This document shows, piece after piece, positions 7,822 through 63,640 of a DNA stretch of 64,000 bases; the stretch's first letter is position 1; each line of letters starts with the position of its first letter. Where the stretch lies: assembly GCA_006503535.1 (NCBI GenBank), contig QYRS01000009.1:620001-684000 (forward strand), in the 5' to 3' direction. The translations under genes and the position numbers were made by a program. Below the pieces are notes generated by a model. It did not search any database. It saw only the letters and a program-made list of their open reading frames with translations, and was not told where the DNA came from. The stretch comes from Arthrinium phaeospermum. Taxonomy: Eukaryota; Ascomycota; Sordariomycetes; Amphisphaeriales; Apiosporaceae.

Positions 7822-8583
7822 TGTGGAATGCGTAGTGGAGGGAAAAGCTTCGAGAAGTTGGTTGATAGAGATTGGGAGATCTGGACCCTCAGCTTTATTT
7901 TGTTCAGAGAAAATAGACCCACTGTATTGGTTGCCTAGGGGATTGTAAACATCGGATGATGCACCGAGTAAGTACCGGCAGCTGCACGACAGGGGTCGAC
8001 TCCAGCCGTGTTGGGGAAGCGGGGTTGCCCACGAGTACGAGGCTACTACCCATTTCTCAATTGACAATTTTGGAAAGTGAGCTCGTACATGAAAAAAATC
8101 ACCTTGAGATTCTATTCACCTATTCTGTTCAGTGCTGTTAATTCTTACACTAGATTCGACTAGGATCACTATAGAGTGTTATCTCTACTACTGTATCGAT
8201 CACGAGATGCTAGTCGACCGCATCCTTTGGCTGTTGTCCAGAGTCGATCGCTCAAGTCAATCCCACAAGCCATCTATCTGAATCAGTGCACTGCCTGAAA
8301 TGCATGCAGATGCCTGCAGTGACTCACACTCTCATTGAACCCAATGAGAGCGACCACCCGAGACAGCCTGCCTGCTGCCAGGTATGTACGCTTCAACACT
8401 CGCTGTCTTTTTCAATCGAGCGCTGGCAAACAGGTCAGGTAGTCGCGCAGATGCAACGTGATAAACGACGGCCCAATCGGAACACCCGCCTGCCTCACCC
8501 TTTTTAGAATGGGACAACACGAGATCAGTGTCCATGGGGAAGATTTTTACAACGCGTTTCCTGGTATATGGAAGTCAAGCTAC
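7822..8583. other. Intergenic spacer
   Basis: Promoter side of the nuclease-kinase gene (its ATG is at 7821) and 3' side of the Hsp70-like gene (stop at 8584-8586). Short frames only; nothing recognised. Confidence 0.5.
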
Positions 8584-28717: not shown

Positions 28718-29434
28718 ATGAAGATCTCCCTTGCTATTCTGGCTTCCACCCTAGTTGCCGCTCACTGGCAGTATGGAGAAGAAACCAACAGCCCAGCGAC
28801 CACCACGCCCGCGCCCCTCTATGTTCGCGAGGACAAGACAAACCAAGAGCTGACCTTCATCGCTGCCCTAAAGAACGCCCTACGTCGTAACCGCGCGAAG
28901 AAGTGCCAAGGGCTCGACCAGGAAAACGTCTTCGTCGAGCGGCTCCACCGGCTTCTGGGCTACTGGGAGCCAGACGACTATCAGACGGGCAACAAGACGG
29001 AACGGGACATCCTGGTGCGCCTGGTAGAGTATCAGAGCGTGTACCAGACTATGTTTGCCCACGGCGAGCGTGGGGCCTTCCCCGACGATGTTGTCGACCA
29101 CATTCGCAGCATACATGACCTGGTCACGCGAGATGGCGGCCTTCACGGTGCCAACCCCCGCGTTCTGGACCCACTCGACATTATATTCGACGACGTATGC
29201 GCTGATACCGGGGAGACCAAGGTGCCACGGCGCGTCCAGGAGACTGTGGACATCGTGCTCCACGGGATGGAATACAATGCCGAGGTGGGGAACTCCAAGG
29301 CTCCGCCGCGACCATGTAAATGCCATAAGGAGTACTCGTGTGGCGTCACGGCAGAGCTCTGGTGGGATGCTGATGAACCCATTTGGGCCTGCGACTGTAT
29401 GGAGTATCATGGCTGTGGGAAGACTGGACTGTGA
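28718..29434 (+). CDS. Secreted cysteine-containing protein, paralogue 1
   Basis: 238 residues in one exon; the start is the ATG at 28718 because it gives a clear signal peptide (M-K-I-S-L-A-I-L-A-S-T-L-V-A-A). The mature part is mostly helical and contains E-R-D-I-L-V-R-L-V-E-Y-Q-S-V-Y-Q-T and T-K-V-P-R-R-V-Q-E, both nearly identical in the paralogue at 45254. The C-terminus carries C-x-C-x6-C...C-x-C-x5-C, also shared. It is probably exported; effector or cell-surface roles are possible but unproven. No known domain is recognised. CTCTTC/CATC-rich leader sequence precedes the start. Confidence 0.78.
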   Translation: MKISLAILASTLVAAHWQYGEETNSPATTTPAPLYVREDKTNQELTFIAALKNALRRNRAKKCQGLDQENVFVERLHRLLGYWEPDDYQTGNKTERDILVRLVEYQSVYQTMFAHGERGAFPDDVVDHIRSIHDLVTRDGGLHGANPRVLDPLDIIFDDVCADTGETKVPRRVQETVDIVLHGMEYNAEVGNSKAPPRPCKCHKEYSCGVTAELWWDADEPIWACDCMEYHGCGKTGL

Positions 29435-45253: not shown

Positions 45254-45979
45254 ATGAAGGTCCCCGCCGTCCTTCTCGCCCTCTTGGGCGCCGCACGCAC
45301 AATGGCCCATCCTCCCGTCGTTCTTGCACCCCGAGAGTTTGTCACCCCGAACATGAGCGCTGCCGCGCCAATGCAGAGAGCGCTGGAGGAATTTCTGGAG
45401 GGGTCACTATCCAACTGCCTGACCCGCAACCGGGCACAGAAGTGCGACGGGCTCGCCAATGACGTCTTCGCCGAGCGCGCAATCAAGTTTCTCAGCTTCT
45501 GGAAAACGGAGGACTACCCCCATGACAGCAGCAGTCAGACGGAGAAGGACCTGCTTGTACGCCTCGTCGAGTACCAGGACGTGTACCAGACTCTCGTCAC
45601 TGAGAATGATGATCATCAACGCTTCCCCGACAACATTGTCGACCTGGTACGGAGCGCCCGCGACCGGGCGACAGAGGAGGGGGCTTTGCTGAGTGCCAAT
45701 GCCCGCGTCCTCGACGCCCTCGATGTCATCTACGACGATATTTGCGGCGACACCAAAAAGACAAAAGTGCCGCGACGCGTTCAAGAAATCACTGATATCG
45801 TCCTGCGAGGTCTGGCCAGGAACTATGAGAACACGCCGTTCGACTCTCACCCGGAACCATGTGTCTGCGCTGGACACTTCCCTTGCGGGCTTGCCGTTTC
45901 GCAGTATTGGGACCCTTCTATCAGGGACTGGAGGTGTCGCTGTCTTGATGAGGTGGATTGTCCGGAGGCTGATGATTGA
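45254..45979 (+). CDS. Secreted cysteine-containing protein, paralogue 2
   Basis: 241 residues from ATG 45254, chosen for the signal peptide (M-K-V-P-A-V-L-L-A-L-L-G-A-A-R). It shares the collinear motifs of paralogue 1 at 28718: N-R-A-x-K-C-x-G-L, T-E-K-D-L-L-V-R-L-V-E-Y-Q-D-V-Y-Q-T, A-R-V-L-D-A-L-D-V-I-Y-D-D-I-C, T-K-V-P-R-R-V-Q-E and the C-x-C-x6-C...C-x-C-x5-C tail. Divergence is substantial outside these blocks, so the duplication is not recent. It lies about 320 bp before the first minus-strand unit of the ITWG family. Confidence 0.8.
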   Translation: MKVPAVLLALLGAARTMAHPPVVLAPREFVTPNMSAAAPMQRALEEFLEGSLSNCLTRNRAQKCDGLANDVFAERAIKFLSFWKTEDYPHDSSSQTEKDLLVRLVEYQDVYQTLVTENDDHQRFPDNIVDLVRSARDRATEEGALLSANARVLDALDVIYDDICGDTKKTKVPRRVQEITDIVLRGLARNYENTPFDSHPEPCVCAGHFPCGLAVSQYWDPSIRDWRCRCLDEVDCPEADD

Positions 45980-46301: not shown

Positions 46302-46950
46302 CTAATATTTCAATGGAATAACCACCGGGAAAGAGGGAATAACTACTGTCAAAACGGCATAACTACTGGAAAGGGTGAATATATTATTGATCCTACCACG
46401 CCATGCTAACATCACCAACATAGTTGGAAGCGGCGGCGGCCCGGGCCAGACGCGCCGAAGCGCCGGCGAGACGCGCGAAGGGGCGGACGGGCTTGTTGTC
46501 GCCATCTCGTTGGCGACGGCGGCGTGCTCTTGCGCACAGTCCGCGAATTCATTTGCCCTTGCTTCCGCTGCAGCCACTGCGTCGATGACCGGCGCGTCCC
46601 ACAGCGGCGCGTCCCACAGCCGGAGGGCGCGGGCGAACGCGCGAGTTGCCTTGGTCGCCAGGAAGAGACGACGCAGCCAGCCGAGCGCCCAGTCAATGAC
46701 CCCAAAAACTTGGAGCCACGAAACGGCCACCGGAATCCCATTGGCGCCCTTGTCCATGAGGCCCAAGTTCCCCCATGTGACGTATATTGGCTATGTAACA
46801 CCTCGTGTTAGCAGTAATCTGGATGGAAAGTAGATAGAACGAAACCTACCGGCTGCTCGTCGTTGGGCTCGGGGCCGGGCTCGGGGGTGCCCTCGGTGGC
46901 AGTGGCAGTGGCAGTGGCGGTGCTGATGTTGGTGGTGCTGGGGCGGGCTA
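46302..46950 (-). pseudogene. ITWG family, unit B (broken, spliced upstream)
   Basis: The minus-strand upstream part has Ala/Thr and Pro/Glu repeats ending in D-E-Q-P, then an intron (GTAGGT...TTACATAG, about 46791-46850) and P-I-Y-V-T-W-G-N-L-G-L-M-D-K-G-A-N-G-I-P-V-A-V-S-W-L-Q. The core runs on to the L-W-D region, then A-V-A-A-A-E-A-R. Near 46480 a single missing base would link to R-L-A-G-A-S-A-R-L-A-R-A-A-A-A, matching unit C's alanine-rich region, before a stop. The Ser/Asn-rich and Arg-rich tails are missing. Confidence 0.7.
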
Positions 46951-47430
46951 GGGCGCAAGGTTTCTCATGGCGGCGACGGCAGCGCGGCTCGTAACGCCAT
47001 CATCACCAGCGTAGTCCTCGGTCGTTCTCGTTCTTTTTCTCGCCTAACCCTAGTAGAGCCCAGATACGCGGTGTCAAAGGCCCTGGCCCGGTCTTTATCC
47101 TTCTGGTGGCGACCATGGAAGCAGCCGCTGGCCGTTGGGCTCGGGCTCGGGCGTGGCGGCAGCGGGTGGGGCGCTGGCTCTGGCTCCGACGCTGGCTCTG
47201 GCTTTGGTTCTGCTGTTTCTGCTGCTACGGGTGTGGCGTCCAGGTCGGCGGCGGTAGTACGGCTTGCGACGCTGTGGTCACCCGCTTCGGCGGCGATCTC
47301 ACTCAGTCTCTAGGGGGCGGTGAGGAGAGCGACATGGCTGGCGGCAGCATGGCAGCCGTGACCTCGGTAGACGCGGCGGATTAAACCTCGTCAAACCGAA
47401 CTTCTCCATCCACAGGCCCCAGATGGAGTC

Positions 47431-47756
47431 TCATTCGATCCCCGATTCCCACCGAAGTATGGGCCAGGTCAGCGGATGGGGATTCGCAGTAATGTCCGCA
47501 GCGATGGTCCATGTGATGTAGAAATGCCGTGCAAAACTCAGTGTTGGCAGGAGGGTGGGAGGTCGCGAGCCGGAACGAGGAATTCTCTGTCGGTGGTGGT
47601 CTCGCTGCTGCCCTCGTTGGTGGTAGTGATCATGTGTGATGGTAGGTAGGCCTCGTTGAAGCGTCAATGAAGCTATATTACCACACCGAATTAGCTCAGG
47701 CTGCTTCGTAGCACGTTAGGACTTAGTGTGCAAGGTATATCGTACGGGGCAGCCAT
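47431..47756 (-). pseudogene. ITWG family, unit D (first exon, intron and a fragment)
   Basis: Starts at ATG 47756 with an 11-nt first exon (ATG GCT GCC CC) and GTACGA. The conserved intron end TGAGCTAAT...AATATAG follows, as in units C, E and F. The next exon has a stop soon after; further on, F-Y-I-T-W-T recalls the start of the core before the match is lost. It is a decayed copy. Adjacent sequence (46951-47430) contains glycine/alanine- and Pro/Glu-rich frames compatible with further debris. Confidence 0.55.
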
Positions 47757-47949
47757 CATGGTAATTGGGATGGCGGTGCTAAGGTCAGCGACGAAAGCAA
47801 TAGGGCCATTAGCCGCGCCGTGCTCCTTGGAAGTCTTCTCCTGGTCCTCGAGCCCGCATCTGCAGGCCCAGTTGGTGCCAGGGCAGCGAACGTGCTCCTC
47901 ATCTGGACAGGACTGGTGTTACAGGGATGGTGCTGGTGGCGACGCTGGG

Positions 47950-48115
47950 CATGATGGTGGCAGTGGTAATGGGCTCAGCACAGCTAGCACCGGGGCAAAA
48001 TCCTGCAGTGCAGCGGCGGTGGCGACATCGATCCCGAGGGCCTGGCCAGCCGCGACCCTCGCCATTTCGTTGCCCTTGCTCCGGTGTGATGGGGAAAGGG
48101 TCCAGCTAAGAAATT
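47950..48115 (-). pseudogene. ITWG family, unit L (C-terminal fragment and a second start remnant)
   Basis: The minus-strand reading N-E-M-A-R-V-A-A-G-Q-A-L-G-I-D-V-A-T-A-A-A aligns with N-E-E-M-A-K-I-S-V-G...L-G-G-L-A in unit E2 and D-E-T-A-K-M-A-S-G in unit E0. It is followed by ...CACCATCATGCCCAGCG, the same context as the start of unit C (CACCATCATGCCCAGCAC), without the splice donor. Units thus lie head to tail. Confidence 0.5.
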
Positions 48116-49241
48116 GTAGGATCGGAATTCTGAGAGGGCAGCTTCGCGTAAACTTTGGTCGTTGTGGTGATGTTGAAGTTAGCCTGGTTGTTGTACTTGT
48201 ACGTTAGTTCCCAGGTAAAATGCCAGTGCGCACGACTGGGGAGAGGCACCAGAACAACCTGACATTGTACTAAGTTTTTAAGCTGGCTGATGTGGGCTTT
48301 TGCCATTTTCAACCTTAAGCGCAACCTACAAACGCTACCTAGGTATCTCACAGGCCCGACGGATACGTACTTTAGGTATCTAGATGATGTGCCCCCTCAT
48401 CGCCAACCACCACGCGAACCAGAATCAACAAGTCGGCCTCCGAGCTACCCTTCAAGCCAGATCCCCCAATTGATTGCGTGCAATCAATATTAATCCTTTC
48501 CCGCTAGCATCTGAACAGGACTTCAAGTCGAGATGCATCATACTCGAGTGCTAGCTCGAATCTGAGTAAGTAGTTTGGTCGGCGACGAAGCTGCTGGACG
48601 AAGGTGACGAAAAGGGGCTGAATCGATCAATTTGTGGCCCCTGTTGATGGGAGCTGGAAAAGCAGCAACGGTACATGATTAGCTTATGGGGGCGTCGAGA
48701 CGAGTCGGGACAACGGGTGGTGTCAGTGAAAACTATGCTTGCATTGGGTAGTCGGGAATACATCATTGATGTTTCAGCTTATTGATAGGTACAGTGTGAC
48801 CTCCCGTTAGTCGTCTCCAACCAGCCTGCCGGTAAGGCAGGGATCTCATGGTATGGGCATCCCAACTCCGCATCCATATATTAAAGATAACCTTGCATTA
48901 CCGCAGCCGCTAGTGTATGTCGTTGACTGGACCTGAAGTGGTAGTGCTCGCACTAGCTCAGTAATAAGTACGAAGGCAGCTCTCCGTTACAAGAGTGGCA
49001 CAGTAAACAAGTCACGATATGAAGACGTTTATATGTGTGTGTGTGGGTATGGGCAGGGCCGCCCCGGTGTTCAATTGTTCAAAAAAAAAACTTCTGCCCT
49101 GTTATACAACCCATGAAGACTCCCCTCCCCCCTCCCCCTTCCCCCTCCTCCTCCTCCCCCAACCCCCCAAAAAAACCATGATACTGCTGCTGTTGCTTCT
49201 TCTTCTTCTGCTGCTGCTGCTGTGGCCGCCGGCTCGCCGGC
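48116..49241. other. Spacer between family remnants and unit C
   Basis: Low-complexity (CT-rich) sequence precedes 49160; no gene is seen. Confidence 0.45.
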
Positions 49242-49460
49242 CTAGCGGCGCGAGCCGCGCGAGCCACGGTTGCGGCGCTTCTTGCTGCCGCCGCTGTTGC
49301 TGCTGCTGTTGTTGCGGCCGCTGCTGGTGTTGTCGCTGCTGCTGCTGGTGTTGCCACCGCCGTTGCCGCTGCCGTTGCTGCTGTTACTGCTGTTGTTGCT
49401 GTTGCTATTGCTGTTGCTGCTGCTGCTGCCCTGGTCGTTGCTGCTGCTGCTGCCGCAACC
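49190..49460. repeat. CTG/GTT trinucleotide-rich tract (coding Ser/Asn-rich tail)
   Basis: Runs of CTG, GTT and related triplets on the plus strand. Read on the minus strand in the frame of unit C they encode the Ser/Asn-rich C-terminal region, so the repeat is coding. Confidence 0.85.
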
Positions 49461-50151
49461 CGCGAGGGCGGCGGCGCCCGCAGCCATGTCGACCGCCTGC
49501 GCGGCGGCCTTCTTGGCGATGGCGACATCACCGGTGGTGGCGGCGGCGCGGGCCAGGCCGGCGGCAGCTCTGGCGATGGCGGCGCGGGGGATGGCGGCGG
49601 CGCAGCCGGCGGCGACCATATCTGCGGCGTCGGCCGCAGCCTCGGCCTGGTCGGCGAAGGCGTTTGCGCTGGCGTTGCGCAGGCCCGGGTCGGCATTGGC
49701 GGCAGCGGCACCCTCGAGGACCGAGTGGTCCCACAACTGCAGATGGGCGGCGAAGGCCCGGGTCCACTTCGTGGACAAGAACTGCCTCCGGAGCCAGCCC
49801 AGCGCCCAGTCGACGAGACCGAACAGCTGCAACCACGACACCCAGACCGGGATGCCCGTGGCGCCGGTGTCGGTGGCGCCGAGCTGGCCCCAGGTGATGA
49901 CGACGGGCTCGCGGTTGGCGGTGGGGGTGGCGACGGGGGTGGCGGCCGCCGCAGAGGAGGTGGTGGTGGCGTCGTCGGCGCCGGCGTCGTCGGTGGTGGT
50001 GGTGGAGGGGGGGGAGGGCAGCTTGTCGAACGTGGTTTTGGGGGGCACCACCCCGGAGACCTTGTTGGTATCGCTAATACATGGTTGATTAGCTCAGTTC
50101 GTCTGAAAGCAGACTCAGGGGCAAAGGTATAAAGACTTACGTGCTGGGCAT
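49242..50151 (-). CDS. ITWG/GIPV-SWLQ family, unit C (intact reference copy)
   Basis: Exon 1 is 50151-50141 (ATG CCC AGC AC), the intron 50140-50074 (GTAAGT...TGAGCTAATC...ATTAG), and exon 2 50073-49242; about 280 residues with no internal stop. Order: short Thr/Ala/Asp-rich N-terminus; core V-I-T-W-G-Q-L-G...G-A-T-G-I-P-V-W-V-S-W-L-Q-L-F-G then L-V-D-W-A-L-G-W-L-R-R-Q-F-L; L-Q-L-W-D-H-S-V-L-E-G-A-A-A; an alanine-rich region; a Ser/Asn-rich (prion-like) region; and a basic R-R-N-R-G-S-R-G-S-R-R end. The hydrophobic stretch between I-P-V and L-R-R could be a membrane or amphipathic helix. There is no signal peptide. No known domain is recognised; I cannot assign a function. This unit is the reference for reading the broken ones. 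Confidence 0.75.
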
Positions 50152-51541
50152 GATGGTGGTGGTGGTGAGTGTGTGTGTGTGCGTGGGTGTCTGTAAGTCG
50201 TCAGTATGTGTCAAAGGGTCAATCCAAAGCCAACCAAAACAGGTAAAACTTACGAAGTTCCTTCAAGAAAACACAAAAAAATTGTCAAGTGGTTCCAACT
50301 ACAATCAATGGTCAGTACTTGATGATACGCCGATGGAACGATGCGCTGATGGACAGGAAAGGATGGGGTTGCATACAGTGTTTGATGAGCGGGCGAGAGA
50401 AGAAAGGAAGAAGAGATTCAGAATCCGGGCAGCGAGAATTCCCTAATATCCCTACGACTGGCGCGCGACGCTAGCTACCCGTTGAGTTACCTATCCGTTG
50501 GGTGCCTTATTCAGTACTGCAGCAACTGTTCGTACCTGCGTACTGTTTACTCGACTGCAGGTGCAGCCGGACAGGGCACGGCGTCCCGTCACTCCGCGAT
50601 GTCATAACTAGCAGATAACGATTAAAAGCATATCTCAGTCCCATTAGCCTGTCAAATCGCTTCCTTGTCCTTGCGAACCGTATTAGTCCCTTTCAACCCC
50701 CTTTTCAAAATCAAGTGCGAGTATATCAGCCAGAAGTAGAAAATCAGTTCAGAACCTAGCGAGTATCGTTCGACGACTGCATCTCTCCCACGGTACATCC
50801 ATGCCCAATTGCAGGGCCCCTGTTGTCAACGACCCCCTTACACATTTGGTGCAATAGCGGCATCGAATTTCTATTTCAATCGTGGGCTCCCACAAGTGGT
50901 GAAATGTGTCCACTAGTCGTATAAGACTCAGCCTCTATCTTGTTTATATCATGTCGTGCGACAATTCTGTTGAGAATAAAACACTGCGAGAGTGTAGACA
51001 AAGGGAGTTTCCAATGATCAGACGTTGGTTGTGAACACCATACTTCGAATGTCGGCTTTAGATGTAGGGGTATCAAGACAACATATCCCAGCGACTGATT
51101 GGGAATTGCAATCATTTCCCATATTCGCCCATCAACTCTAATCATCACTGTGAGGTTAATCCTCAAGCAAACGTTCGAGAAGCTTGCTACATTTGTAGTT
51201 ATTATCCCTAACGCGGATGAGAAAAGGGGTTTGGAGGATTCAGGGGTAAGTCACACAGTGGGTCAGTCACGTGAATCACGTGACGACTTTTAATCTTCAG
51301 AGATGTGCAGTCTATTGCGTCAAACAGCCCAGCACATTCGTTGATTGTACCTAGCAATCCAATCATTATTGTGTTCTTTAATACTTCATCTCAATTCCAA
51401 GGGAGCCCTTGAGCATACCCGCGAGCCTGCCGTGCAAACTTTCACCGGAAACGATTTGGCTCATATTCCAATACTGTACTACTTACTGCCCCCATTATCC
51501 CCTCAGGTTCTGGTCGGCGCGAAGGCTTCAACTAAGAGGTG
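50152..51541. other. Spacer; possible tRNA-like remnant
   Basis: Upstream of unit C there is a (GT)n-like stretch. Near 50395-50500 on the minus strand, TAACTCAACGGGTAGC followed downstream by a GGATTCTGAATC resembles the A and B boxes of a tRNA-derived element, but no cloverleaf could be confirmed. No protein-coding gene is supported. Confidence 0.35.
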
Positions 51542-53323
51542 CTATATGAGAAGTAAAGTCATCGGCAGATCGTGGTACATTTGGTAATCCATCTCTTGGC
51601 TCCATTCCAGGACGACGAACTTGGTCAACGCAATTACGTCGTCATCAGACAACTGATCGTGGTCAGGCTCTGTAGGACGTTCTGGTCCACCGGTTTCTGT
51701 CCCCGTAGTAGAACTATGCCTCAATTCGGCTTTCCAAAACCCCGTCCGGTCCAGATTCCTGGTCTTGGCCTCGGCCAAAGGTCCCCCTAAAGCAACCAAT
51801 GCGGCATCAGTTAGTACCCGGACGACATCGCCACTGTCACCCTTGCCAGCCATGACAGTAGAGTAGACAATGTCAGGCATGCTTCGTGCTGTGAATTGAG
51901 GGTCCCAGCCTTTGCTGATGAGGACGGAGCTGCCAGTTATCACGGCATTCTGGAGTGAGACTGCGAGGCGTGTCCTGTACTTTTCCATAGCGGGCTTTCC
52001 TACAGATAGTAAGTTGTCGCGCAATCCACGATGCATGGACCATGACACATGGGCCCAAGGGATAGAGTCCAGTGCGCTAACAATTGTGCCGTATTCCTCT
52101 GGTCCCATAAATAGGGGAACCATTTTCCCCTTGTTCAGACTCGGCAGTAACACTTTATGGGTATGAGTCTCCACTGTTTCTCCGTGCTCGATACTCCTCC
52201 AATGCAAGAGGTCGACCTCGAACACATTCCCGCCTGACATGTTGAAGAAGTGACGACTACCATGGGCGCCTGGGAACCCTCGCCGTCGGAATTGTAACAC
52301 ACCAGGAACCGCCTTGCGGCCAGGAAAAGCCACACGAAGGCCTGCTCGGTTGTCGATGATACCAGCCAGCATCTCGACGGAACGGTCTACCCGTATTTTT
52401 AGGGATGGTGGGTACCTATCCTTCGAATTCTCCGTGAACATATCGTGCAGGCTGAGCGTGACCACAGCTTTAGCGCCAATCGGCCACTCGACAGTCCACA
52501 GTCCTGCATAGGAAGGGAATGATGCTCTGTATCCCGAAGCGCCCGAGTACTTGAATATCTCTCGAGCATTGGAGATGCACAACAACGTAATGAGCGTCGT
52601 TCTAGAAATCGAGACACCGGCCAAGTCTCGGTGTCGAACAAGATCTCGCAGTTCCGCTGAGGGCCTAGGGTAGATGTCCGTAGCCATGTGCTTCCAGACT
52701 AATTCATGCTCTGTATTGGTCATTTAGTACGACCAACAGTATTTGACGAGGAAGGTTTAAACCAGGTAGGTCAAAAAGGGATAATTACCTGGGCCCAGTG
52801 CATCAGGATTGGATGATGTTACGTTGAAGACTGCCATCACCGCTGTCCAGGACATTCGACCCGATGGTGAAAGCGGGCGGCGACTGAGATGAATTTCGTT
52901 GGATCTACAAAATCCCCCGTGCCATGACACGACCAGCAGTGGCCCTCGGAGGTTGGGCCTTCGCAACTGGTACCAGCCTCGGTACGGTTGTCTCATGATC
53001 CACGCGCCGAGCACCTCGTGGCTTCGCAACGTGAAGAAGGGGTCCATATGCTCTTGAATGACGGTCCCCTGAGCAATGAGGGAGCTGAGGCCGACAGAGG
53101 TCGCCAGCGCACCCACCCACCCCGCAGTCAAGTTGGCATAGTCCATAGTTTCCGCCATAGATGTGCCGATGAGAAGAGGTAGGATATCTTGAGAGGGGCA
53201 AAACTTCCCGCGGACCGGGGAAAAGATGGTGTCTTTATGCAAGCAGAGTGCGCTAGGATTCAAACACGTCAGCAAGCTGCACAAAGTCCTCATTGACATT
53301 GGCTCAGCTTGGTAATCTTGCAT
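51542..53323 (-). CDS. Orphan protein with N-terminal membrane-like segment
   Basis: Two exons, 53323-52789 and 52710-51542, with a 78-nt intron (GTAATT...AATACAG, phase 1), giving 567 residues. Residues about 60-85 contain M-D-Y-A-N-L-T-A-G-W-V-G-A-L-A-T-S-V-G-L-S-S, a hydrophobic segment seen at the start of many fungal proteins of unknown function, followed by H-M-D-P-F-F-T-L-R. The remainder is soluble, of mixed composition, with no recognised domain. The length, single clean intron and continuous frame support a real gene. Function is not assignable. Confidence 0.72.
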
Positions 53324-53913
53324 CTGCCCGAGAAACCAATTTTATTGGCCTGTGTGTTTCGAAAGTGTGATAGTGGCGTGCTGACTACATGATTCACCCG
53401 GCTCAAGTAGCGATGGTAACCGCGCCATTGCTCCGTTCTTTCTGCACCGAATCTCATTCGTACAGACAGTTCAACACCATATTGTATCTATAACCGTTCA
53501 GGATTGCCTCGAAAAGTACGAGAAAATTTTGACCAAGATCTCGAACTTACATGATGTAAAGAAAGCTCACGTGGGATTGACTACTAGAGCTGCATAAGTA
53601 TATCCAACATGGAGATATGCAGGACTCGAGGCACGTGGGCTAGTACAGACGCATATTGATCACGTGAACAATACTCAGTACTCAGGCCAGTACGCATGCT
53701 TCATCTACCGGTATCTAACCATCATGAGAGAAACACCCCAGGACCGAACATTTCATGTCGAGTTGAAACCCTGTTACCCTCCACCGCAGCAATTGGATGT
53801 ACTGGCTATCATGTCTAGTTTCCAACGTTATTTACCAAAAGCCAGTGCTGTTACATAGCTGCCACCTGGCAGCCTTTTCCTTCCTTGATACATGCAATTT
53901 GGTTCCCATTTCC
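53324..53913. other. Intergenic spacer
   Basis: Promoter side of the gene starting at 53323. No gene is seen. Confidence 0.45.
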
Positions 53914-54689
53914 CTAACCGAGCCCCTCAGTCATTACCTGAAATTGTTTCATAGATCGCTTGGGCTTGTCGTCGTGAGAAGAGAATGTTGTGCGATCTGA
54001 TGATACCGGTTAGCATGAACTGTTCGTGGCGGTCACGTGATACGTCGCCTGGGTTGACGCCGGCATAATAGAGAGGTACTTACACTGGGCATCAGCTTCA
54101 CTGAGATGTACTGTGACTCGGACAGAAACGCCATCCAAAATTTGACTGCCCCGGTCCTTGCGTCCATGCACACCTCGAGATGGGAAGCCCCCAGCATATC
54201 CTCTAGCTGAGCGTGGGTCACGCGCGTCTGCTGCTCGTCCTGCCCATTTTGGGGCACCATGCGACAAAGGACGAGGTCCTTGTAGTCTCCGCCCGCCTTG
54301 GCCTTGAGACGGCGACGCATCTGGTCGGTCTCGTCCTCCTGCGAGTCACGGCCGACCGACTGCACAGCCGACAACATGCTTCCACCGGGCGGAGGGGGTG
54401 CAGCTCTGCTAGGGGGGCCGCCGGCCTGGCTCTGGTTCACGCCCGACATGCGCATGTTGCGGACGTCCAGGTCGAGATGAGGGATATCCCAGGCGATGCC
54501 GGACGCGATGTCGCCCAGGTCGCCGAGACTGTCGCCGAAGTAGTTGGTGCCGGCTTTGGAGATGGGGCGGAAGGATTCCCCCTTAATGGACGCGGAATCC
54601 CTGCTGGTGCGATCCCAGCCGCTAGCCGCCGCCCCCTTGTTGTCTGCAGGGTGCTGCTGCTTCGACTCGGGGGTTCTGGAGAAATGCAT
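53914..54689 (-). CDS. Orphan disordered protein, spliced near the C-terminus
   Basis: From ATG 54689 the frame encodes a basic, Ser/Pro-rich protein with Y-F-G-D-S-L-G-D-L-G-D-I-A-S-G-I-A-W-D and a more ordered part (C-R-M-V-P-Q-N-G...L-S-E-S-Q-Y-I-S-V-K-L-M). A donor (GTGTAAG or GTAAGT) at 54085/54083 and an acceptor at 53997 give a short last exon ending in a TAG at 53914-53916. The last exon depends on the donor chosen and is uncertain. No domain is recognised. Confidence 0.45.
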
Positions 54690-57600
54690 GCTGGCTGGGC
54701 GCGCGGCAATTGGATGTGAGTGGGGGGGTTATGCAATCAAATCTATGACGACAGGGCTTGGTCGTTGGTCGACAGGGATGCGGCGATAGGTTGATGGGCT
54801 TTTCCGGGTTCGGGTTGCGCGTATTTACTTTGTTGTTTTGATATTGGGAAGTCGGTTTAAGCTACTCCCCGCTTGGGCAGCTGCTTTCCTGGCCATAAAT
54901 ACCGGTCCCTAAAGATGTGGCCGGTGTCTCAGCCACAACCGAGCATTAACCGTAGCACTTAGTCAGCTGGAGATCTGCACATGATTGCCGGTCGCAGCCA
55001 AGGCCGGCGTGCTGGAGTGTGAGATGTTTGAGTGCCCAACCTAGCTCGGATCACCCTCGGCAGACCCCGAGCTCCAGCCCACTCATTATGCGAGGCTAAA
55101 CCGGCAGGTTGGGTCGCCAGGGGCACGCCTGGATGGCGGGAAAAGCCCAACACGAACCTCGCTGTTTTCTTTTTGACGACTTTTCGTGTTTTCCAGTCGC
55201 TTTTCGCATCGAGCCACCTCTCTAGGCGAAAAGTTCTTTCACCGCCAATCAATTGCTGTAATTGCGCGGGCGCGGATCACGTCGCAGCGCGTCTCTGCCG
55301 GGTGTGCTCAGACCACCCTCTGCGCTGTCCCGTCGGTCCTGTCCCAGAAATACGTCACCGCATGTCTCCTTGATATCCATTTTTCCGGAAAACCGCCTCC
55401 CTGGATTTTCGTCTCCTGATATTTGGCTCAGATCAATAAATTGGGACTTGATCATATGTAATTGCAAATCGCAATGACCATCTCTTTCAAGGGTCAAATT
55501 GGATAAAATGTATAAATCGATCAGATTGCCCTGCCCGGCACTTCTCCCACAAAAACCCGAAACTACGGAAGCGTCTGTAGCCCGGCCAAACGACGACTAC
55601 CGTGATAACTGCTCATGTGGGTCCGGTCATCCCGAAGCCAACTATTTAACCGCCTAGCCCTGTTTCATAGACTTTTGCAGGAAGAACAAAACGGATAAAC
55701 CGCTTCAACATTTTATTATTGCAGAACGACTGGCCTAAGGCAGATATGCTCTGAAAGGCACTTACAGTGAACTATGGTCGCACCGCGAGGGCGGTCAAGA
55801 ATATCGAGGTAGACTTTTACGAGATTATAGCAGCCAGCAAGGGAAAGGGGAGACACGCAAGCGATGAAACAGATATGTATGGCATTGAGTACAATTTTGC
55901 CAGAACACCATTCCGTGGTTCTTTGTTACAGGTTTCGGGGGTCCCGGTCTAGGGCTGGCTCACACCGGAACCGGCGGGAAAGTGCGCATCCTCCGCTGCT
56001 CCAACGTTCCATGCATTTTCCAAGGTATCAAAACGGATGAATAGGTAGGCATGTGTCTTTCCCAACCAGACAATGACGCCCGGCTGTCCGAAAACGTTGG
56101 TCTAGCTTTCATGGCCAACCAGATGAAATACCCAGGAGACCTGCATTAAGAGATATGACAAAATAGGCGAATACTTTGTCGCGTTTGCGTTTGCTTACAC
56201 AGTTCTAGACGACAAAACGAAATCTAGATAGGTCGATATTTAAGCCTTCGAACGAGGTTGTCTGGCGTGATCCTCTTAGAGCCTTGTACTCGTCGACAAA
56301 AGTTCTGTGCAACGAAGATGGTTTGCTCTCGGGATCTATATACGTCAACTTACATGAGGCCGGACAGTCAATTGTGGATCAGGAAGATTGCATGATGGCC
56401 TTTCTGGCATCGAGCATTCTCTGGATGGTACATACACGTGTACATCATCGAAAGCTAGAAGGTTGGTCATGTTTTGAACAGTCTACCAATAATCCTGGGA
56501 AGATGATTCATTTTGATGGACACTATTGGAAATATCCTCGAGCCTGTAGCTATCCTGGGCAATTGAGGTAAGTCCGGCAATGAACACGAATTATCGTCGT
56601 CTAACAGTAGACACCAAAATCAATAAGACTGGCATGTTGACGTCTGGGTGGTCTTCAATCCAGACACGGGCTGGTCGACGGGCATTATTCCACCGCATCA
56701 AACAAGCTTTCCTGGTACTTGGCTGGGACAATGTGTTATGAGATATGTTTGGGGAATACTATAGTTTTGATCTGCTAGAGAATATGGCCCTTAGATGCTT
56801 CTCTGAGGCGCAAATTGGCCCAGAAATGAAGGCGTGGGTGGATGATATTTAGTGCATCCACAACTGCCGTTCGGCCCACGAAAATGGCGATTCAATCTAT
56901 TGCCCAATGCAGAATACTTTCCGATTCAATGATGAGCGTCCAGCAAGGTAACTATGTAGCGTCGCTCAATGACACCAAATATGCTGCATTCCTTCCGAGT
57001 TTAGATTTCTTGCTGACACCTGCACTTTGCCTGTGAGAACCTTACGTTTTTGACCCAATGGCTTAGTAGTGCATTGAATGCGAGAAGGGGGATGAAACGA
57101 CAGGAAAATGTCGGGAAAGACCCACTGATACCCATATACCATAGATGTGTGATTGATTACTAATTATTACACCTGCTGGCGAAGAGGTTCTTGCAAGCAA
57201 AACAATTAGTGTTGGCAGTAGCTCGAAGCCTCCCTGCAGCCCCGCCCTAAGACGAAGGCTTGGGCCTTGGGGAAAAGGTTGGACCCTGCTTCAATGACGA
57301 CATGGTCGAACAGCAGAAGCCATGCCGGGCTATCCACGAAGTTGTGGTCAAAACATAGGTAGGTAGGCATGTAGATTAGGTAGGTAGGTACAGAACACAG
57401 TTAAACTATATCTAAAGAAGGAAGGAAGTCGATGTAGTGCAGTTGAAACCCCGCTCAACCGAGCTCTCAATCGTTGGGGTCTGGCTGGCTAATTCTTATG
57501 CTCTCCTTTGCCTTTGCCTCATCATCCGATGCGTTTCCTCACATCGACTTAAACACTTTGTGCATTACTAATTGACTTAGCGAGTCAAACTTCGTCAATA

Positions 57601-57700
57601 TCAATTTTTGTTCTTTCGCCCTCACATCCGAATCCGTATGTCACCCATCGCTTTGCGAATATCGAATTTATACGACCGATTGCATACTAATTATTGATGG
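54690..57700. other. Long gene-poor stretch
   Basis: Several frames of 60-110 codons, the best at 56284-56571 (V-N-L-H-E-A-G-Q...L-A-S-S-I-L-W-M-V), look like fragments at most. A (TAGG)n microsatellite is near 57358-57392. No gene is supported. Confidence 0.4.
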
Positions 57701-57812
57701 CGTAAATTTGTTATAATACCAGTACCAGCATCCCCAGCAGCCCCAGGATCCCCAGCAGCCTCAGCAGCCTCAGCAGCAGCCACAGCACCACCACAGCAGC
57801 AACAACAGCACC

Positions 57813-58622
57813 ATGGCGACCACGTATGTTATACACCCTAACCCCTGAACATGATGCGAAGCGACTTGAGCTAATGAGGAGTGATATATAGATTCTCACC
57901 CGGTACCGATGGGGCTCTGCCCACCAAGCCCGCGGCCCTGCCCTCGGCCCCCAGCAGCAGCAGCACCAGCGCCACTACCACCAAGACTGATGCCCCCCCA
58001 CCCCGCCGTCATCAAGGCGGCTCAAGAGGCAGCCGCTCACATGGCTCGTCGAAAGCGTGGCAATTTCGGTCGAGCAACTCGCGGGCGTTGACCTCGCGGC
58101 CACCCCGCATGCCCAGATCTGTCGGGCCTCTGCGCGGGTGGCTCGCACGGCCGCCGACAACGATGACGACGAAACGGCCAAGATGGCCAGCGGTCGATGC
58201 CTCGACCTCGCTGCCTCTGCCTTCACCACCATCGTACCCAGGCCCGTTTGCACAATCTTTAGCACCAGCGTCGCGCCCAGCAACGGCACCACCAGCTCCG
58301 GCACCACCACGACCAGTTCCCTGCTGGCCCCGTCGACACCGCCGGCTTCTTGCCAGCAACAAGGCCCACGGGGTGGTCCCCCTCAAAATGACCTTCGATA
58401 CCACAACCGACACCACCACTATCACCATCACCTGAGGCCAGCTCAGCGCCACCAACAACGGCGCCACGCGGTATTCCTGTAGTGGTGTCGTGGCTGCAAG
58501 TCTTCGGTCTGATCGACTGGGCGCTGGGCTCGCTCCGGCGGCTCGTATTGTCCAGCAAGTGGACGAGGGCCTTTGTAGCTGCTCTGCAATACTACCACCA
58601 CCCCAATAACAGTAGCGACGTC
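57813..58622 (+). pseudogene. ITWG family, units E0 and E1 (merged, broken)
   Basis: E0 begins with an 11-nt exon (57813-57823, M-A-T-T), an intron (57824-57891 with TGAGCTAATG) and F-S-P-G-T-D-G-A-L-P-T-K-P. It then jumps to P-A-V-I-K-A-A-Q-E-A-A-A, which belongs after the core, and to D-E-T-A-K-M-A-S-G. A second N-terminus follows (N-K-A-H-G-V-V-P-L-K-M-T-F-D, similar to N-K-V-S-G-V-V-P-P-K-T-T-F-D of unit C), then T-I-T-I-T-stop: a TGA at 58433-58435 stands where unit C has W of I-T-W-G. Further a frame break precedes G-I-P-V-V-V-S-W-L-Q-V-F-G-L-I-D-W-A-L-G. The core stops after F-V-A-A-L-Q. Recombined and inactivated copy. Confidence 0.65.
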
Positions 58623-59217
58623 AACCGCAGCCGCAACAGTAGCAACAGCAGACGCAGCAGACGTAATAACAGGAATAGAGCAGTAGCAACAAGAACAGCA
58701 GCAGCAATAGCAATAGTGGCAGCAGCAACACCACCACGAGCCGTAACAGCAACAGCAATACCACCACCACCATCATCATCATCATCCAGATTGCCACCCC
58801 CGCTCCCACCACCGCCGACCGGGTAAGTTGCGTTCCGGCTCTTACCTTTCCACCTGGGATAATGCTAACTTGAGGTGCTACACAGTCGATCCACATCACA
58901 TGAGGCCGATTAGGAGCCGGGGCCACAGGGGCCACCGGTATCCCGGTAGTTATGTCTTGGATGCAACTCTTCGGGCTGGTGGAGTGGGGGCTCACGTTCG
59001 TCCGTCGCCGGTTCCTCGCCAGCAAGAGGGCCCGTAGCTTTGCCACGGCACTGCGCCTCTGGGACCCCGCCGTCATCAAGGCGGCTAAGGCAGCCATCGT
59101 CTGGGTCTCTGCAGGCGTGGCCTGAACCTGACCTAACATTGCAAACGAGGAGATGGCCAAGATCTCGGTCGGCCACCGGGGACGGATCCTAGGTGGCTTG
59201 GCCACTCATGTCACCAC
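58623..59217 (+). pseudogene. ITWG family, unit E2 (stop in place of Trp)
   Basis: Exonic Thr/Ala/Asp-Arg sequence (T-A-D-R) is followed by an intron (58823-58885, GTAAGT...TACACAG), and then S-I-H-I-T-stop-G-R-L-G: the TGA at 58901-58903 replaces the Trp of I-T-W-G. The frame continues with G-I-P-V-V-M-S-W-M-Q-L-F-G-L-V-E-W-G-L, L-W-D-P-A-V-I-K-A-A and A-I-V-W-V-S-A-G-V-A before a stop. After a frame change, N-I-A-N-E-E-M-A-K follows. The intron matches the one in unit B; unit C lacks it. Confidence 0.7.
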
Positions 59218-59236
59218 CGCCGTCACCACCATCATC

Positions 59237-60106
59237 ATGCCAACGTACGGCTTCATGCCTTTGCCCCTAAATTTGCTTTGGGACGAGCTGAGCTAATATT
59301 ATTCATCGTTGAATAGCTCGACCAGTCCAATCGGCGCCGGGGCCCTGTCCCCCTACCGCAACAGCACCGCCGCCACAACCCCTTCCACCTTCGCCAACTG
59401 CCCTTCGCCGACTACCACCACCACCAACAACACCACCACTAACAATACCACCACCAACAACACCACCGCCGCCGACGACCCCCCGGCTGGCTCCCCCACC
59501 TCCTCCTCCTCCTCCAACCCCATCTACATCACATGGGGCAACCTCGGCCTCGGGGAAAAGGGGGCCAATGGCATCCCCGTATAGGTGTCATGGCTGCAGG
59601 TGTTCGGCGTCGTGGACTGGGCGCTCGGGTGGCTGCACCGCCTCTTCCTGGCCTCCGGGCAGGCCCGCGCGGTCGCCCGCGCAATGAAGTTGTGGGACAC
59701 CGCGGTCATCGAGGCCGCTGCTGCCGACGCTGCCGACCCTGGCGCGCGGGCCCGGCGGGTCGAGGCCTTGGCCGCCGCCGCCGACGCTGCCGCTGCCGCT
59801 GCTGACGAGATCGCCGGCTCCAACCCGGCCGCCCGGCCCCTGGCCGGTATCACACGCGCTGCCGCCCGCCTTGCCGCCGCCTGCGCCGCTGCCTCTCCGA
59901 CGAGGAGGGTGCCAAGACTGCCGGCCGGTGGCCCTCCTCCTCCTCCTCACCACCCCCACCCCAATCCACCCAGCAGCAGCAGCAGGCACAGCAGCACCAG
60001 ACGCAGCAGCAGCAACAGTAAGAGCAGCGGCAACAACAACAGTTGCAACAGTAGCAACAGCAGCAACCGACGCCGCAACCGTGGCTCTGTCGGCTCGGGC
60101 CGCTAG
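59237..60106 (+). pseudogene. ITWG family, unit F (single in-frame stop)
   Basis: Exon 1 is 59237-59244 (ATG CCA AC), the intron 59245-59316 (TGAGCTAATATT...AATAG) and exon 2 59317-60106. N-terminus: S-T-S-P-I-G-A-G-A then a long Thr/Asn repeat. Core: I-T-W-G-N-L-G-L-G-E-K-G-A-N-G-I-P-V-stop-V-S-W-L-Q-V-F-G-V-V-D-W-A-L-G. The TAG at 59582-59584 occupies the position of the W in unit C's G-I-P-V-W-V-S. After it, the whole C-terminal half is open: L-W-D-T-A-V-I-E-A-A, the alanine-rich part, the Ser/Asn tail and R-R-R-N-R-G-S-V-G-S-G-R. Apart from that one stop it is complete, and a read-through or recoded product would be full length. Confidence 0.75.
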
Positions 60107-60365
60107 GCAGCAGTAGCAGCAGTATCAAGGCGTTTGATCATTATCATTACGACTATGCAAGGCGTACGGCATTGGTTTTCTTAGGGGATGGAGGGAAAGG
60201 GCCAATCATGGCGTTATCGGAGGAGTTAACCTTGCGCATTTCACGCTTGGCAGACGAGCCTTCTTCACGGGTTGTACAACCGGGCGCTATCGATACACAG
60301 TTGACAGTTGGGTCGGCCCTGAACCCGCATAACACATGAACGTGCGACTGGTCTGATTTGCATTC

Positions 60366-60560
60366 GTGTGGAATCAGAACGAAACGTGGCTCCGGGTCTT
60401 TGGCCTGGTGGAGTGGACGCCGGCGTGGCTGCGTCACTTGTTTCTGGCCTTCGAGCCATCTCGCGCGCTGGCGCGCAAGCTGCTGCTCTGGGACCTCGCG
60501 GTCATCGAGGCCGCAGCCACCGCCAACCCTGCCACCCGTCCTCTGCCGCCATCATTCTCA
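60366..60560 (+). pseudogene. ITWG family, unit H (core fragment)
   Basis: Reads W-L-R-V-F-G-L-V-E-W-T-P-A-W-L-R-H-L-F-L-A, then L-L-L-W-D-L-A-V-I-E-A-A-A-T-A-N-P-A. The N-terminal part and the tail are missing. It abuts unit G directly. Confidence 0.65.
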
Positions 60561-60561
60561 C

Positions 60562-61316
60562 TAACTCCCCCATATACATAACTTAGGGCGACCTCAGACT
60601 GGGCGGCAAAGGCACCACAGGCACCCCGTGTGGGTGTTATGGCTACAAGTCTTTAGCCTAATCAACTGGGCGCTCGGGTGGCTACGCCGCGTCTTCTTGG
60701 CCTTCGAGCCGTCGCGCTCCCTGGCGCGCAAGCTGATGCTGTAGGACCTCGCGGTCATCGAAGCCGCAGCCGCCGCTGCCACCGACCCTGGTGCGCAGGC
60801 CCGCCGCGCCGCCCACGTCGAAGCTACTGGCGCCGCCGCCAACGCCGTCAACCCCTCCGCCGGGTCCCTGGCCGCAATCTGCTGCGCCGCGGCCGCCATA
60901 GCGCGCGCCAGAGTTGACGCCAGCAATGAGGAAGTCGCAATATCAACCGCCATCACCACCGCCGATCCTGATGCTCGGGCCCGGTGCGCCAAGACCAACG
61001 CCGATGCTGCTGATGCCATCAACGCCGCCAAGGAGATTGTCGCTGCTATTCTTGCCGCCCGCCCCTTTGCTGCCCTCTCCCACAACAAAGTCCGCGCCGC
61101 CGCCGAGGATGCCGCCGCCACCCTCGAACAATGGCTCTCCCGGCCCATCTCTAGCGTGGTGGTCGAGGGGGACGCCCGGGCTCTCTCCCCCGGCCCCCAG
61201 GATCGCCGCAACCTATCGACCCTCGACGTTAGCATTTGCTCTTTTTGGAGGGAAGAGGATGTCTCAAGAGGGAACAATGGGAGTTTCTCGAATAAACGGT
61301 TCCTCTTTCCATCGTG
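60562..61316 (+). pseudogene. ITWG family, unit G (long alanine-rich copy, two stops at Trp codons)
   Basis: I-Y-I-T-stop-G-D-L-R-L-G-G-K-G-T-T-G-T-P: the TAG at 60584-60586 sits at the I-T-W position. After a one-base gap in a C run near 60624, W-V-L-W-L-Q-V-F-S-L-I-N-W-A-L-G-W-L-R-R-V follows, then L-M-L-stop-D-L-A-V-I-E-A-A, with a TAG at 60742-60744 in place of the W of L-W-D. A long alanine-rich helical region (A-R-V-D-A-S-N-E-E-V-A-I) with no Ser/Asn tail follows, continuing with few breaks to about 61316. Confidence 0.7.
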
Positions 61317-61411
61317 AGACACTGGGATAGCTTGGAATAAACACTAAACCAGGAAGGAATAAACATCGAAAGTCGCTTACCAGCCGCTTTGACCGCCACG
61401 ACTCCATCCAC

Positions 61412-61545
61412 TAGGAGGACAACCAGCCTGTGCGCCATCCACGCCAAGCGTGTCGCCATCCAGTCTAAGGACACCATCCTGCGCGCCATCCACGCCTAGC
61501 GTGTTACCATCCAGTCGAAGGACATCCAGCTTGCCCGCCGCAACT
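61412..61545 (+). pseudogene. Histone H3 C-terminal fragment with a 51-bp internal duplication
   Basis: The plus strand reads L-C-A-I-H-A-K-R-V-A-I-Q-S-K-D, then a second copy A-I-H-A-stop-R-V-T-I-Q-S-K-D-I-Q-L-A-R-R. The sequence immediately upstream (GAGGACA-CCA-CCTGTGCGCC with one extra A and one G) matches the E-D-T-N-L-C-A region of histone H3 with a frame break. The two copies are offset by 51 bp. Histone H3 is strongly conserved, so the assignment is secure. It is a dead fragment. Confidence 0.85.
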
Positions 61546-62430
61546 CCTCGGAGTTTCTGGGGATTGCAACAGTGGAGGATGAACACTTCATGAGCAATAT
61601 GGAATGGTTTTGATGACAACGGTCTTGAAGGGTAAAGGGTTAATCATGTCGTTTGTGTTCGCGTTGATTTTTCATGAGTGAGGGCAGTATCTTTATCTTG
61701 AATTGATACAGGCCGCCCGAGGCACCAACCAGACATACAGACTTCTTCTCCCTTGTGACTTGCTTGCTGTGATATTTGCCTTTCGTAACATGAGTAGGGC
61801 TGCCCTTGTCCTTGATGGCGAGCTAATCCAAGCCCTGTCACCCCAATTTCATGGAGCGACAGACATTCGCGGCTGCGGCAATGCAATATTATTTCTATAT
61901 GGATACTGTGCCGAGACACCTAGAAGAGTAGATCCCTGCGTTGCCCGTAGACAGTTGAGACGGCTAATCTAATAAGTTAATTTCTGCCACCCCACGCCTG
62001 ATTTCGACTCTCTCCTAACGTCGGTTTCATCCCTCTCATCAACTTTGCCATCGACTGGACCATGCACCTTTAGACCAGCGTTGGAGCCAGCATTTGAGCA
62101 CAATACATCATGACGTCAATGTCGAAATCGCATGTTCGTTAGGAAGAATTATTGTTAACTGCATATGTCAGATGTCTATTCTGGCACAAAGATTAGCTTG
62201 AAGGCTGGTAGGCTGGCTCGTTGTTCTAGTCCACAACGGGAGAGAATACACAAGTACCTATCTAATACCCCCTGGAGGGGTCTGGGTTGGCGCCTGTAGG
62301 GTGTGTTTAGGGTCAAAATGGCCAAGAACCCACTTGTCTTAGCACGTTGAAACACTGTTGGGTCCCTTTACTTGCCCGCACAGGCATTGAGTACGGGTAC
62401 TAACGTCCACCTGTCACCTAATGCATCTGG
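61546..62430. other. Spacer, nothing recognised
   Basis: Short frames only. The interval lies within the family array but I see no clear family sequence here. Confidence 0.4.
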
Positions 62431-62439
62431 ATGACTTTA

Positions 62440-62750
62440 AAACCACAACCATCAAGTTCCGGAAGAAGCCACTCGTTCAGCAACTCAGTCTTATCCATTT
62501 GTTGGCCCAAACCCGCCACCGTTGCGGACTTGGTTCGTACCGCTACCATCAACAAGGACGAGGAGGTAGCGAAGGTCACTACTGCTCGGGCCCTCGCGAT
62601 CGTTGATACTGCTGATGCTGCCAACCTGCGCGAAGAGCGCGCAAAACGCTACACCGCCAAGGCCGATGCTACTTCCTGAGCAAACGAGCACCTCACCGCC
62701 AGCAGCCACGTCGCCGCAACCAGAGCCGTCCCTGTCATTCTAATCAACCG
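62440..62750 (+). pseudogene. ITWG family, unit I (alanine-rich C-terminal fragment)
   Basis: V-R-T-A-T-I-N-K-D-E-E-V-A-K-V-T-T-A-R-A...V-D-T-A-D-A-A-N-L, then a TGA and A-N-E-H-L-T-A-S-S-H-V-A-A. It aligns with the A-R-V-D-A-S-N-E-E-V-A-I-S-T-A-I-T-T...A-D-A-A-D-A-I part of unit G. No core sequence is visible upstream. Confidence 0.5.
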
Positions 62751-63189
62751 ATTGCAATTGGCCGTCACCATTGCAGCCAGAGGACCCGCGGCTAGGCTTC
62801 GGCCAAGCCCTCCGTTTCTACAACTAGGAGATCGTCGACGCGTTCGCTGTCCACGGCTTCGTCCGCTCTGCCAAATCTACCGCACGCTGCTGTTAGCGTA
62901 CACCGTCAGTGCGCCGGACGCGATGGCGTGGCGGGCTATTTCGGGACCCTCGGACTTGAAGCGGCCGTTGCCACCGGAAACGCCGGGCCCCTTCCCGTGT
63001 CAGCAGCAGAAATATAGCTCGATCCTGAGTCTGAGCCAGAACCCGAGTCGGAGACGGCCAGCACTGCGTTCTCGGCGTCGGGCTAGAACTGCCCCATAGC
63101 TAGCGGCCATGCCCGCGGGCGCCGCCGAAAGGCCAATTGTCTCTGGCACCGCGTATCTTCCTTCTCGAGAAACATGTCGGGGGCGAGGA
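62751..63189. other. GC-rich stretch with possible further debris
   Basis: Alanine/arginine/proline-rich frames without a clear match. A gene is not supported. Confidence 0.35.
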
Positions 63190-63292
63190 CGAACAGAAGA
63201 ACACCGAAGTCTGTGCGTGGCTGTTCCTGCTGGCGAGCTTCAGGCTTATCAATTGTGGCCTGGTCTTTCTGCGTCTGATAGTCTCACGCCAG
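63190..63292 (+). pseudogene. ITWG family, unit K (diverged hydrophobic core)
   Basis: Reads C-A-W-L-F-L-L-A-S-F-R-L-I-N-C-G-L-V-F-L-R-L-I-V-S-R. It aligns with S-W-L-Q-V-F-G-L-I-D-W-A-L-G-S-L-R-R-L-V-L-S-S, with the D-W replaced by N-C. It is a diverged relic; the similarity is moderate and could be partly compositional. Confidence 0.4.
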
Positions 63293-63469
63293 TAAGTGGC
63301 TACCGCCAACATATTTCATGAAGCCCGCCGCGATCGAGTCTGGGTCAGGACTTCCTGATACCCAGTGGTCATCGCCGTCGTCACCAAGACTCGCTCGGTT
63401 TCTTGCCCCTGTTCCGCGCCTCCCGTGCTTAGGCGAGAGCGAACACGAAGAAGAAGAGCGTCGAGGTCT

Positions 63470-63640
63470 ACGTATTATGGTTGTTGGCTGGTAACCTTCG
63501 GGGTCATCGATTGGTTTTGCATATGGCGGTACCGGTGGGTTCTCTCTGTCGGCAGCACTCTGTGGCTGGTGAATTACGAGATAATTAACGCCGTCGCTGC
63601 CGCGGAAGATCCCGGGCGCAGTTTAGAATCAGACAAAAGA
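63470..63640 (+). pseudogene. ITWG family, unit J (diverged core)
   Basis: W-L-V-T-F-G-V-I-D-W-F-C-I-W-R-Y-R-W-V-L, then N-Y-E-I-I-N-A-V-A-A-A-E-D-P-G-R, aligning with W-L-Q-V-F-G-V-I-D-W-A-L-G-W-L-R-R-L-F-L and V-I-D-A-V-A-A-A-E of unit B. It lies after an Arg-rich region; no start is identified. Confidence 0.5.

Follow-up and report, generated by a model that had tools for sequence, protein, structure and literature searches.

A clustered gene family with one open copy and many broken copies at a single locus of Arthrinium phaeospermum

Introduction

What is a run of similar, mostly broken reading frames that match no named protein family: a living gene family, its dead remains or a chance likeness of composition? 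The question is raised by a locus of the fungus Arthrinium phaeospermum (GCA_006503535.1, a 48.4 Mb assembly of 19 contigs). In a 64,000-nucleotide stretch of contig QYRS01000009.1 (C9:620001-684000, hereafter the window), a first-pass annotation, made without database searches, described an unrecognised family of repeated units between positions 46302 and 63640. Unit C, a two-exon gene, is a member of this array. On balance, the array is probably a lineage-restricted gene family undergoing birth and death, with unit C as one surviving gene whose product is perhaps membrane-associated. Coordinates given without a contig or sequence name are positions in the window.

Results

Copies in the array and the open gene

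The units have a common layout, which had been described correctly from exon 1 to the Arg/Gly end: a tiny exon 1, an intron, a Thr/Pro/Ser-rich N-terminus, the motifs ITWG, GIPVxVSWLQxFG, DWALGWLRR and LWD, an Ala-rich part, a Ser/Asn tail and an Arg/Gly end. A tblastn census (E <= 1e-3) of the 104-kb stretch C9:600001-704000 revealed ten core copies, seven of them inside 46302-63640 (46.6 and 49.9 kb on the minus strand; 58.5, 58.9, 59.5, 60.4 and 60.6 kb) and three beyond the window (C9:606.9, 607.4 and 685.6 kb). The "at least ten units" formerly assigned to the interval are thus reached only across 104 kb; the interval itself contains the seven and one more stretch recognised by eye. The copies had been said to lie head to tail on both strands; in a corrected description, two minus-strand units at 46-50 kb are flanked on both sides by plus-strand groups.

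The genome-wide match counts of this family are counts of overlapping exon pieces and represent lower bounds. Counted in this way, unit C (202 residues as the query) had 11 matches in the whole genome, all in C9:606.8-686.1 kb, and P0002, a relative from another species, had 14, with 13 in this stretch of C9 and one on C5 (E 0.003, three stops). A further diverged copy (C9:607.8 kb; L020 7813-8493) matched itself and, weakly, one place on C1 (E 0.04, two stops). Apart from weak matches, the detected relatives are confined to C9:606-686 kb, and E-values between copies go down to 9.5e-38.

Unit C is the sole copy found open end to end, in agreement with the earlier claim. As deduced from the sequence, its exon 1 (50151-50141, 11 nt) would be joined to exon 2 (50073-49242) by removal of a 67-nt intron (50140-50074), giving a product of 280 codons, MPSTDTNKV...NRGSRGSRR, with the stop at 49242. 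Upstream there are two candidate introns of the 5' untranslated region (5'UTR), 50376-50299 (GTATGC...TAG) and 50253-50191 (GTAAGT...CAG). An alignment of the upstream flanks of eight copies is loose (mean column identity 47%), with common CT-rich blocks, and by eye it contains similar stretches, probable 5'UTR introns, upstream of some other copies. In the genome, 131 bp of the 5' flank matched only itself, and by blastn 102 bp of this flank were 77% identical to C9:606.2-606.3 kb. The tiny first exon and intron are recognisable in several copies, often with GCTAAT before the acceptor.

Every other copy examined contains stops, frameshifts or truncation. The 46.6 kb unit has a frameshift in the Ala-rich part (by eye). 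A TGA stands at the Trp of ITWG in the 57.8-58.8 kb unit (58433, in a frame different from that of the core) and in the 58.9 kb unit (58901), the latter having a second stop at 59123. One in-frame TAG (59582-59584) occupies the Trp position after GIPV in the 59.5 kb unit, whose last Ala helix seems, by eye, to hold an out-of-frame stretch. The 60.6 kb unit has a frameshift and, in place of Trp, two TAG stops (60584, 60742). A tandem repeat of period 51 (2.6 copies, 61404-61539) lies 3' of the 60.6 kb unit.

The outlier noticed earlier at 25.7 kb was confirmed, as a member of a second, B-type subtype; it includes exon 1, an intron, a Thr/Ser/Pro tract and a GIPQVVSLLVILVLATFLWAWLRR helix, with a frameshift before GIP (by eye). 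A second B-type copy is located at C9:610.3 kb (L021 250-1050). Some units are mosaics joining A-type and B-type pieces: the end of the 60.6 kb unit is 87% identical over 127 bp to B-type L021 929-1053, and the unit at L020 6.5-7.1 kb carries a B-type segment within its leader. The proposal of repeated exchange between copies is supported by these mosaics. Matches of at least 120 bp between family copies are 67-87% identical, with no near-identical tracts.

Constraint on the core

When the core of unit C was compared with ten stretches of nine other copies (422 codons), differences at the three codon positions numbered 130, 73 and 195, and the ratio of nonsynonymous to synonymous differences per site (pN/pS) was 0.38. 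The Ala-rich part (264 codons; pN/pS 0.68) is under weaker constraint than the core. A gap-free block of 43 codons was registered by hand in nine sequences, the L022 copy being excluded since its core is divided over two frames. In this block pN/pS was 0.35 between unit C and the eight broken copies (304 codons) and 0.41 between broken copies (27 of the 28 pairs, with at least 20 codons each; 922 codons), and shifting the same DNA by one or two bases as an out-of-frame control gave 1.14 and 2.16. As judged from these codon comparisons, the core is a coding protein domain constrained on many branches, including those of broken copies. Since the broken branches were constrained too, many breaks are likely late; the copies differ at about 0.6 of synonymous sites and yet the core is constrained, so that most of them would have worked for long and broken late.

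Composition alone was rejected as the source of the similarity because the shifted-frame control speaks against it; the E-values between copies and a constraint seen in frame only likewise show more than chance. The likeness in the Ser/Asn tails (unit C, 59.5 kb unit) and in the Thr tract (59.5 kb unit) is probably only compositional, all of these being degenerate triplet repeats. Tandem Repeats Finder reported period 3 at 49283-49453 and period 21 at 49293-49453 in the unit C tail, and this repeat reads Gln-rich in another frame. A self-assembling, prion-like tail, suggested earlier, was rejected as a selected feature, since the tract is a triplet repeat; the likeness to fungal prion-like and amyloid proteins is seen in composition alone.

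Relatives and predicted structure

Three hypothetical proteins of Apiospora are named relatives of unit C (protein search, E <= 2e-33): P0002 (PG984_014959, Apiospora sp. TS-2023a; 58% identity over 64% of unit C), P0003 (PG991_008899, Apiospora marii; 72% over 36%) and P0004 (PG985_015078, Apiospora marii; 51% over 59%). An extra relative is a 77-aa protein fragment from a 36.9-kb contig. The first two protein searches scored only the approximately 8000 candidates with most words in common, and the third, with residues 108-190 of P0002 alone as the query, returned only P0002 itself out of 260 candidates. Within the sensitivity of these searches, in which distant kin can be missed, the family appears limited to Apiospora and close kin.

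Like unit C, P0002-P0004 have an MPSS leader, a Thr-rich stretch and parts of the core and of the Ala-rich part. They differ from it in that P0002 has no sequence beyond the Ala-rich part and has the ITWG-GIPV piece doubled, that VSWLQ is missing from P0003 and P0004, and that the start of P0004 lies further upstream. Unit C belongs to the family of P0002, with which it has in common the core, the MPS start, the leader, the Ala-rich part and the same predicted helices (E 1.7e-48).

The family was rightly called unrecognised. At E <= 1, neither unit C nor the 46.6 kb unit had a Pfam match; the 59.5 kb unit had two, both below cut-off, and P0002-P0005 had no Pfam domain at E <= 0.1. In NCBIfam, P0001 and P0002 had one match each, far below cut-off, and P0003 and P0004 none; no PDB match was below E 0.48. 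For HeLo-type membrane cell-death proteins, which have a HeLo or HeLo-like domain, the comparison covered Pfam, where unit C had no match of any kind, no direct profile comparison being made.

In the AlphaFold2 model of unit C (13 sequences; mean predicted local distance difference test score, pLDDT, 65), the hydrophobic core corresponds to a Trp-rich helix (76-100; block means of 71-82), which is followed by a bundle of three helices, 129-156, 158-180 and 183-205, with block means of 89-96 over residues 131-200. The leader and tail are modelled as unstructured, with pLDDT < 50 over most of the tail. The model of P0002 contains the same helices at lower confidence and, having the same input sequences, is not independent. 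Fold-search matches were generic helical bundles only and were rejected. In the 25.7 kb paralog, the helix at the homologous position has a hydropathy of 2.30 and is plainly transmembrane-like. Across the copies scored, the predicted helix remains hydrophobic despite changes in its residues, but this paralog alone looks plainly transmembrane.

Stops and repeat-induced point mutation

Of the eight stops read in the cores, seven (four TAG, three TGA) replace Trp and the eighth, in an L020 copy, falls at the Tyr position; L022 has two further TAGs outside its core. The Trp of ITWG accounts for five of the seven (58433, 58901, 60584, C9:606936 and C9:607144; three TGA and two TAG); the copies are related, and this clustering is left unexplained. 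In the core of unit C, 23 single-step changes lead to a stop, and 14 of them start from Trp; among transitions alone the figure is 14 of 18. The Trp bias therefore needs no special cause. Trp stops were rejected as a signature of editing or of repeat-induced point mutation (RIP), their share being near chance.

Bulk RIP of the array was rejected too, because the dinucleotide indices of its 2-kb bins are not RIP-like; in one array bin tested, the observed/expected ratio (O/E) of CpA was 1.31, not depleted. Unlike this bin, two AT-rich blocks bear strong RIP marks, with CpG kept: 20001-22000 (8.3% GC, CpA O/E 0.08, CpG O/E 11.2) and C9:614001-616000 (window -5999 to -4000; 16.6% GC, CpA O/E 0.24, CpG O/E 3.9). 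A literature search for Apiospora with RIP yielded nothing beyond one mention of Apiospora. The genome has four DNA-methylase matches.

Neighbouring features

The features are collected in Table 1. The DUF3435 domain is that of Starship captain recombinases; the genome has 14 DUF3435 match pieces, and one of the two here has two TAA inside, introns being ignored. A second clustered family, of Cys-bearing proteins, gave 11 match pieces, four on C9 here and seven on C1:4.995-5.161 Mb, and two of its members had no Pfam domain over cut-off. Scans of the window for tRNA and Rfam families found none.

Table 1. Features of the array and its surroundings
Feature	Position	Strand	Basis
46.6 kb unit, core exon behind probable second intron (46849-46791)	46302-46790	minus	tblastn E 8.9e-22 to unit C
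Unit C, intact two-exon gene	49242-50151	minus	open frame, splice signals and length checked; Apiospora relatives P0002-P0004
Unit C core domain PVVITWG...GIPVWVSWLQLFGLVDWALGWLRR...LWD, 60 codons, predicted hydrophobic helix	49728-49907	minus	pN/pS and model
Unit C Ala-rich part, predicted three-helix bundle	49464-49727	minus	block pLDDT 89-96, pN/pS 0.68
Unit C Ser/Asn-rich tail and basic Arg/Gly end, AGC/AAC triplet-repeat tract	49242-49463	minus	Tandem Repeats Finder, low pLDDT
Two probable 5'UTR introns of unit C	50191-50376	minus	ends checked, splice consensus only
57.8-58.8 kb unit: exon 1 and intron, rearranged exon 2, core 58458-58601	57813-58760	plus	tblastn, sequence
58.9 kb unit, probable second intron	58793-59125	plus	tblastn, sequence
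59.5 kb unit: exon 1 59237-59244, intron 59245-59316, exon 2 59317-60106	59237-60106	plus	tblastn, sequence, comparison with L020 copy
Core piece lacking both the 5' and the 3' part, free of internal stops	60384-60539	plus	tblastn E 8.3e-11
60.6 kb unit: A-type core joined to B-type C-terminal segment (61085-61209)	60568-61240	plus	tblastn, sequence
Decayed core stretch	63460-63620	plus	by eye only; undetected by tblastn at E <= 1e-3
B-type paralog (25.7 kb outlier)	25674-26405	plus	E 0.0037 to P0002; hydropathy 2.30
DUF3435 gene	15334-17167	plus	E 2.9e-42
Cys-bearing proteins, second clustered family	45254-45979 (+), 28718-29434 (+); C9:612078-612538 (-)		signal-peptide-like start by eye
Ankyrin-repeat genes with similar starts around array	38334-40448, 41517-43232 (+); L022 5721-7941 (-)		
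Two genes with protein-kinase domain matches	5479-8067, 34519-36321	minus	
Open frame, 393 codons	51542-52723	minus	no Pfam match at E <= 1

Discussion

In our opinion, a family concentrated at one locus, with a core constrained in frame, lesions in most copies and mosaic units, is on balance best explained by birth and death within a narrow lineage, unit C being one surviving gene. The family would evolve at this locus through duplication, recombination and loss. The predicted product of unit C is small: its N-terminus, rich in Thr, Pro and Ser, would be disordered, a hydrophobic helix rich in Trp would lie on or in a membrane, an Ala-rich three-helix bundle may be cytosolic and bind a partner, and the basic tail would be flexible. 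Several points weigh against parts of this reading. Single pairs of broken copies scatter in the 43-codon block (pN/pS 0.07-0.65); the pairs share ancestry, so that the counts are non-independent and carry no p-value, and some pairs approach saturation at synonymous sites. The core helices of three A-type sequences have hydropathies of only 1.26, 1.30 and 1.46, and with a summed insertion energy of 5.4-5.5 the A-type helix is not transmembrane on simple scales. In a single reading frame, the second B-type copy reaches 1.74 (insertion energy +3.1) and the diverged copy 1.31, and membrane contact leans on the 25.7 kb paralog. For the core helix, the membrane activity supposed earlier is thus a possibility, but the case for unit C itself is weak, and the product of unit C is perhaps membrane-associated.

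It is rather unlikely that the whole array, unit C included, consists of decaying pseudogenes and that the open frame of unit C is due to chance. All copies examined except unit C are broken or truncated, and the Apiospora models P0003 and P0004 look patched. However, unit C retains its start, splice sites, 280 codons and basic end, the core is constrained in the true frame only, and P0002 preserves 58% identity in another species. One intact gene amid incomplete copies and mosaic units also resembles an archive of silent cassettes whose recombination into unit C would diversify its product, but recent conversion is not visible at the 67-87% identity of the longer matches, and we consider this explanation extremely improbable.

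RNA editing offers another account of the stops. The genome contains four matches to DUF726, a domain with a tie to editing. A review expects adenosine-to-inosine (A-to-I) editing in many other Sordariomycetes and does not mention DUF726 (PMC11156358). In Fusarium graminearum, 69 PUK1-like pseudogenes are reported, besides PUK1 itself, to undergo UAG to UGG editing in perithecia, and introns in such genes were wrongly annotated so as to avoid the stop (PMC4817773). Some copies here are similar in that a UAG preceded by U takes the place of Trp: the TAG of the 59.5 kb unit replaces Trp, follows T and falls into a predicted hairpin loop. The models P0003 and P0004 of Apiospora marii, which look as if introns dodge stops, are both without the stretch between GMP and ALGWLRR, a gap such as would result from a false intron placed around a stop. 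Unlike the PUK1-like genes, the copies have a stop pattern near chance (seven of eight at Trp), and TGA, which lacks the U that editing prefers before the A, makes up three of the seven stops at Trp. Hairpins at UAG sites were rejected as uninformative: loop adenosines are common here (126 of 290; 10 of 16 after T), and the adenosine of the stop at 60584-60586 is paired in a 41-nt fold. Moreover, the 59.5 kb unit seems also to have an out-of-frame stretch. No literature on A-to-I editing in Xylariales was found. It is therefore very unlikely that the UAG-at-Trp copies are conditional genes decoded only in sexual reproduction. It is likewise very unlikely that part of the array, such as the 59.5 kb unit, stays silent during vegetative growth and yields full-length protein in perithecia alone; if true, perithecial editing would explain the constraint seen in broken copies.

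The locus adds an undescribed protein domain under constraint to the many lineage-restricted genes of fungi. It is compact enough for duplication, mosaic exchange and gene loss to be traced copy by copy, and its broken copies, still constrained in frame, allow direct tests of when genes were lost and of the editing idea.

Many described lineage-restricted cluster genes of fungi encode secreted proteins; unit C differs from them in that no signal peptide is visible by eye. Taxonomically restricted tandem gene clusters undergoing birth and death are known in filamentous fungi, and the array resembles them in its narrow distribution, one locus, many broken copies and RIP-marked AT-rich blocks nearby. 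It looks like an ordinary, fast-changing fungal gene family with a previously unnamed domain rather than a new kind of system.

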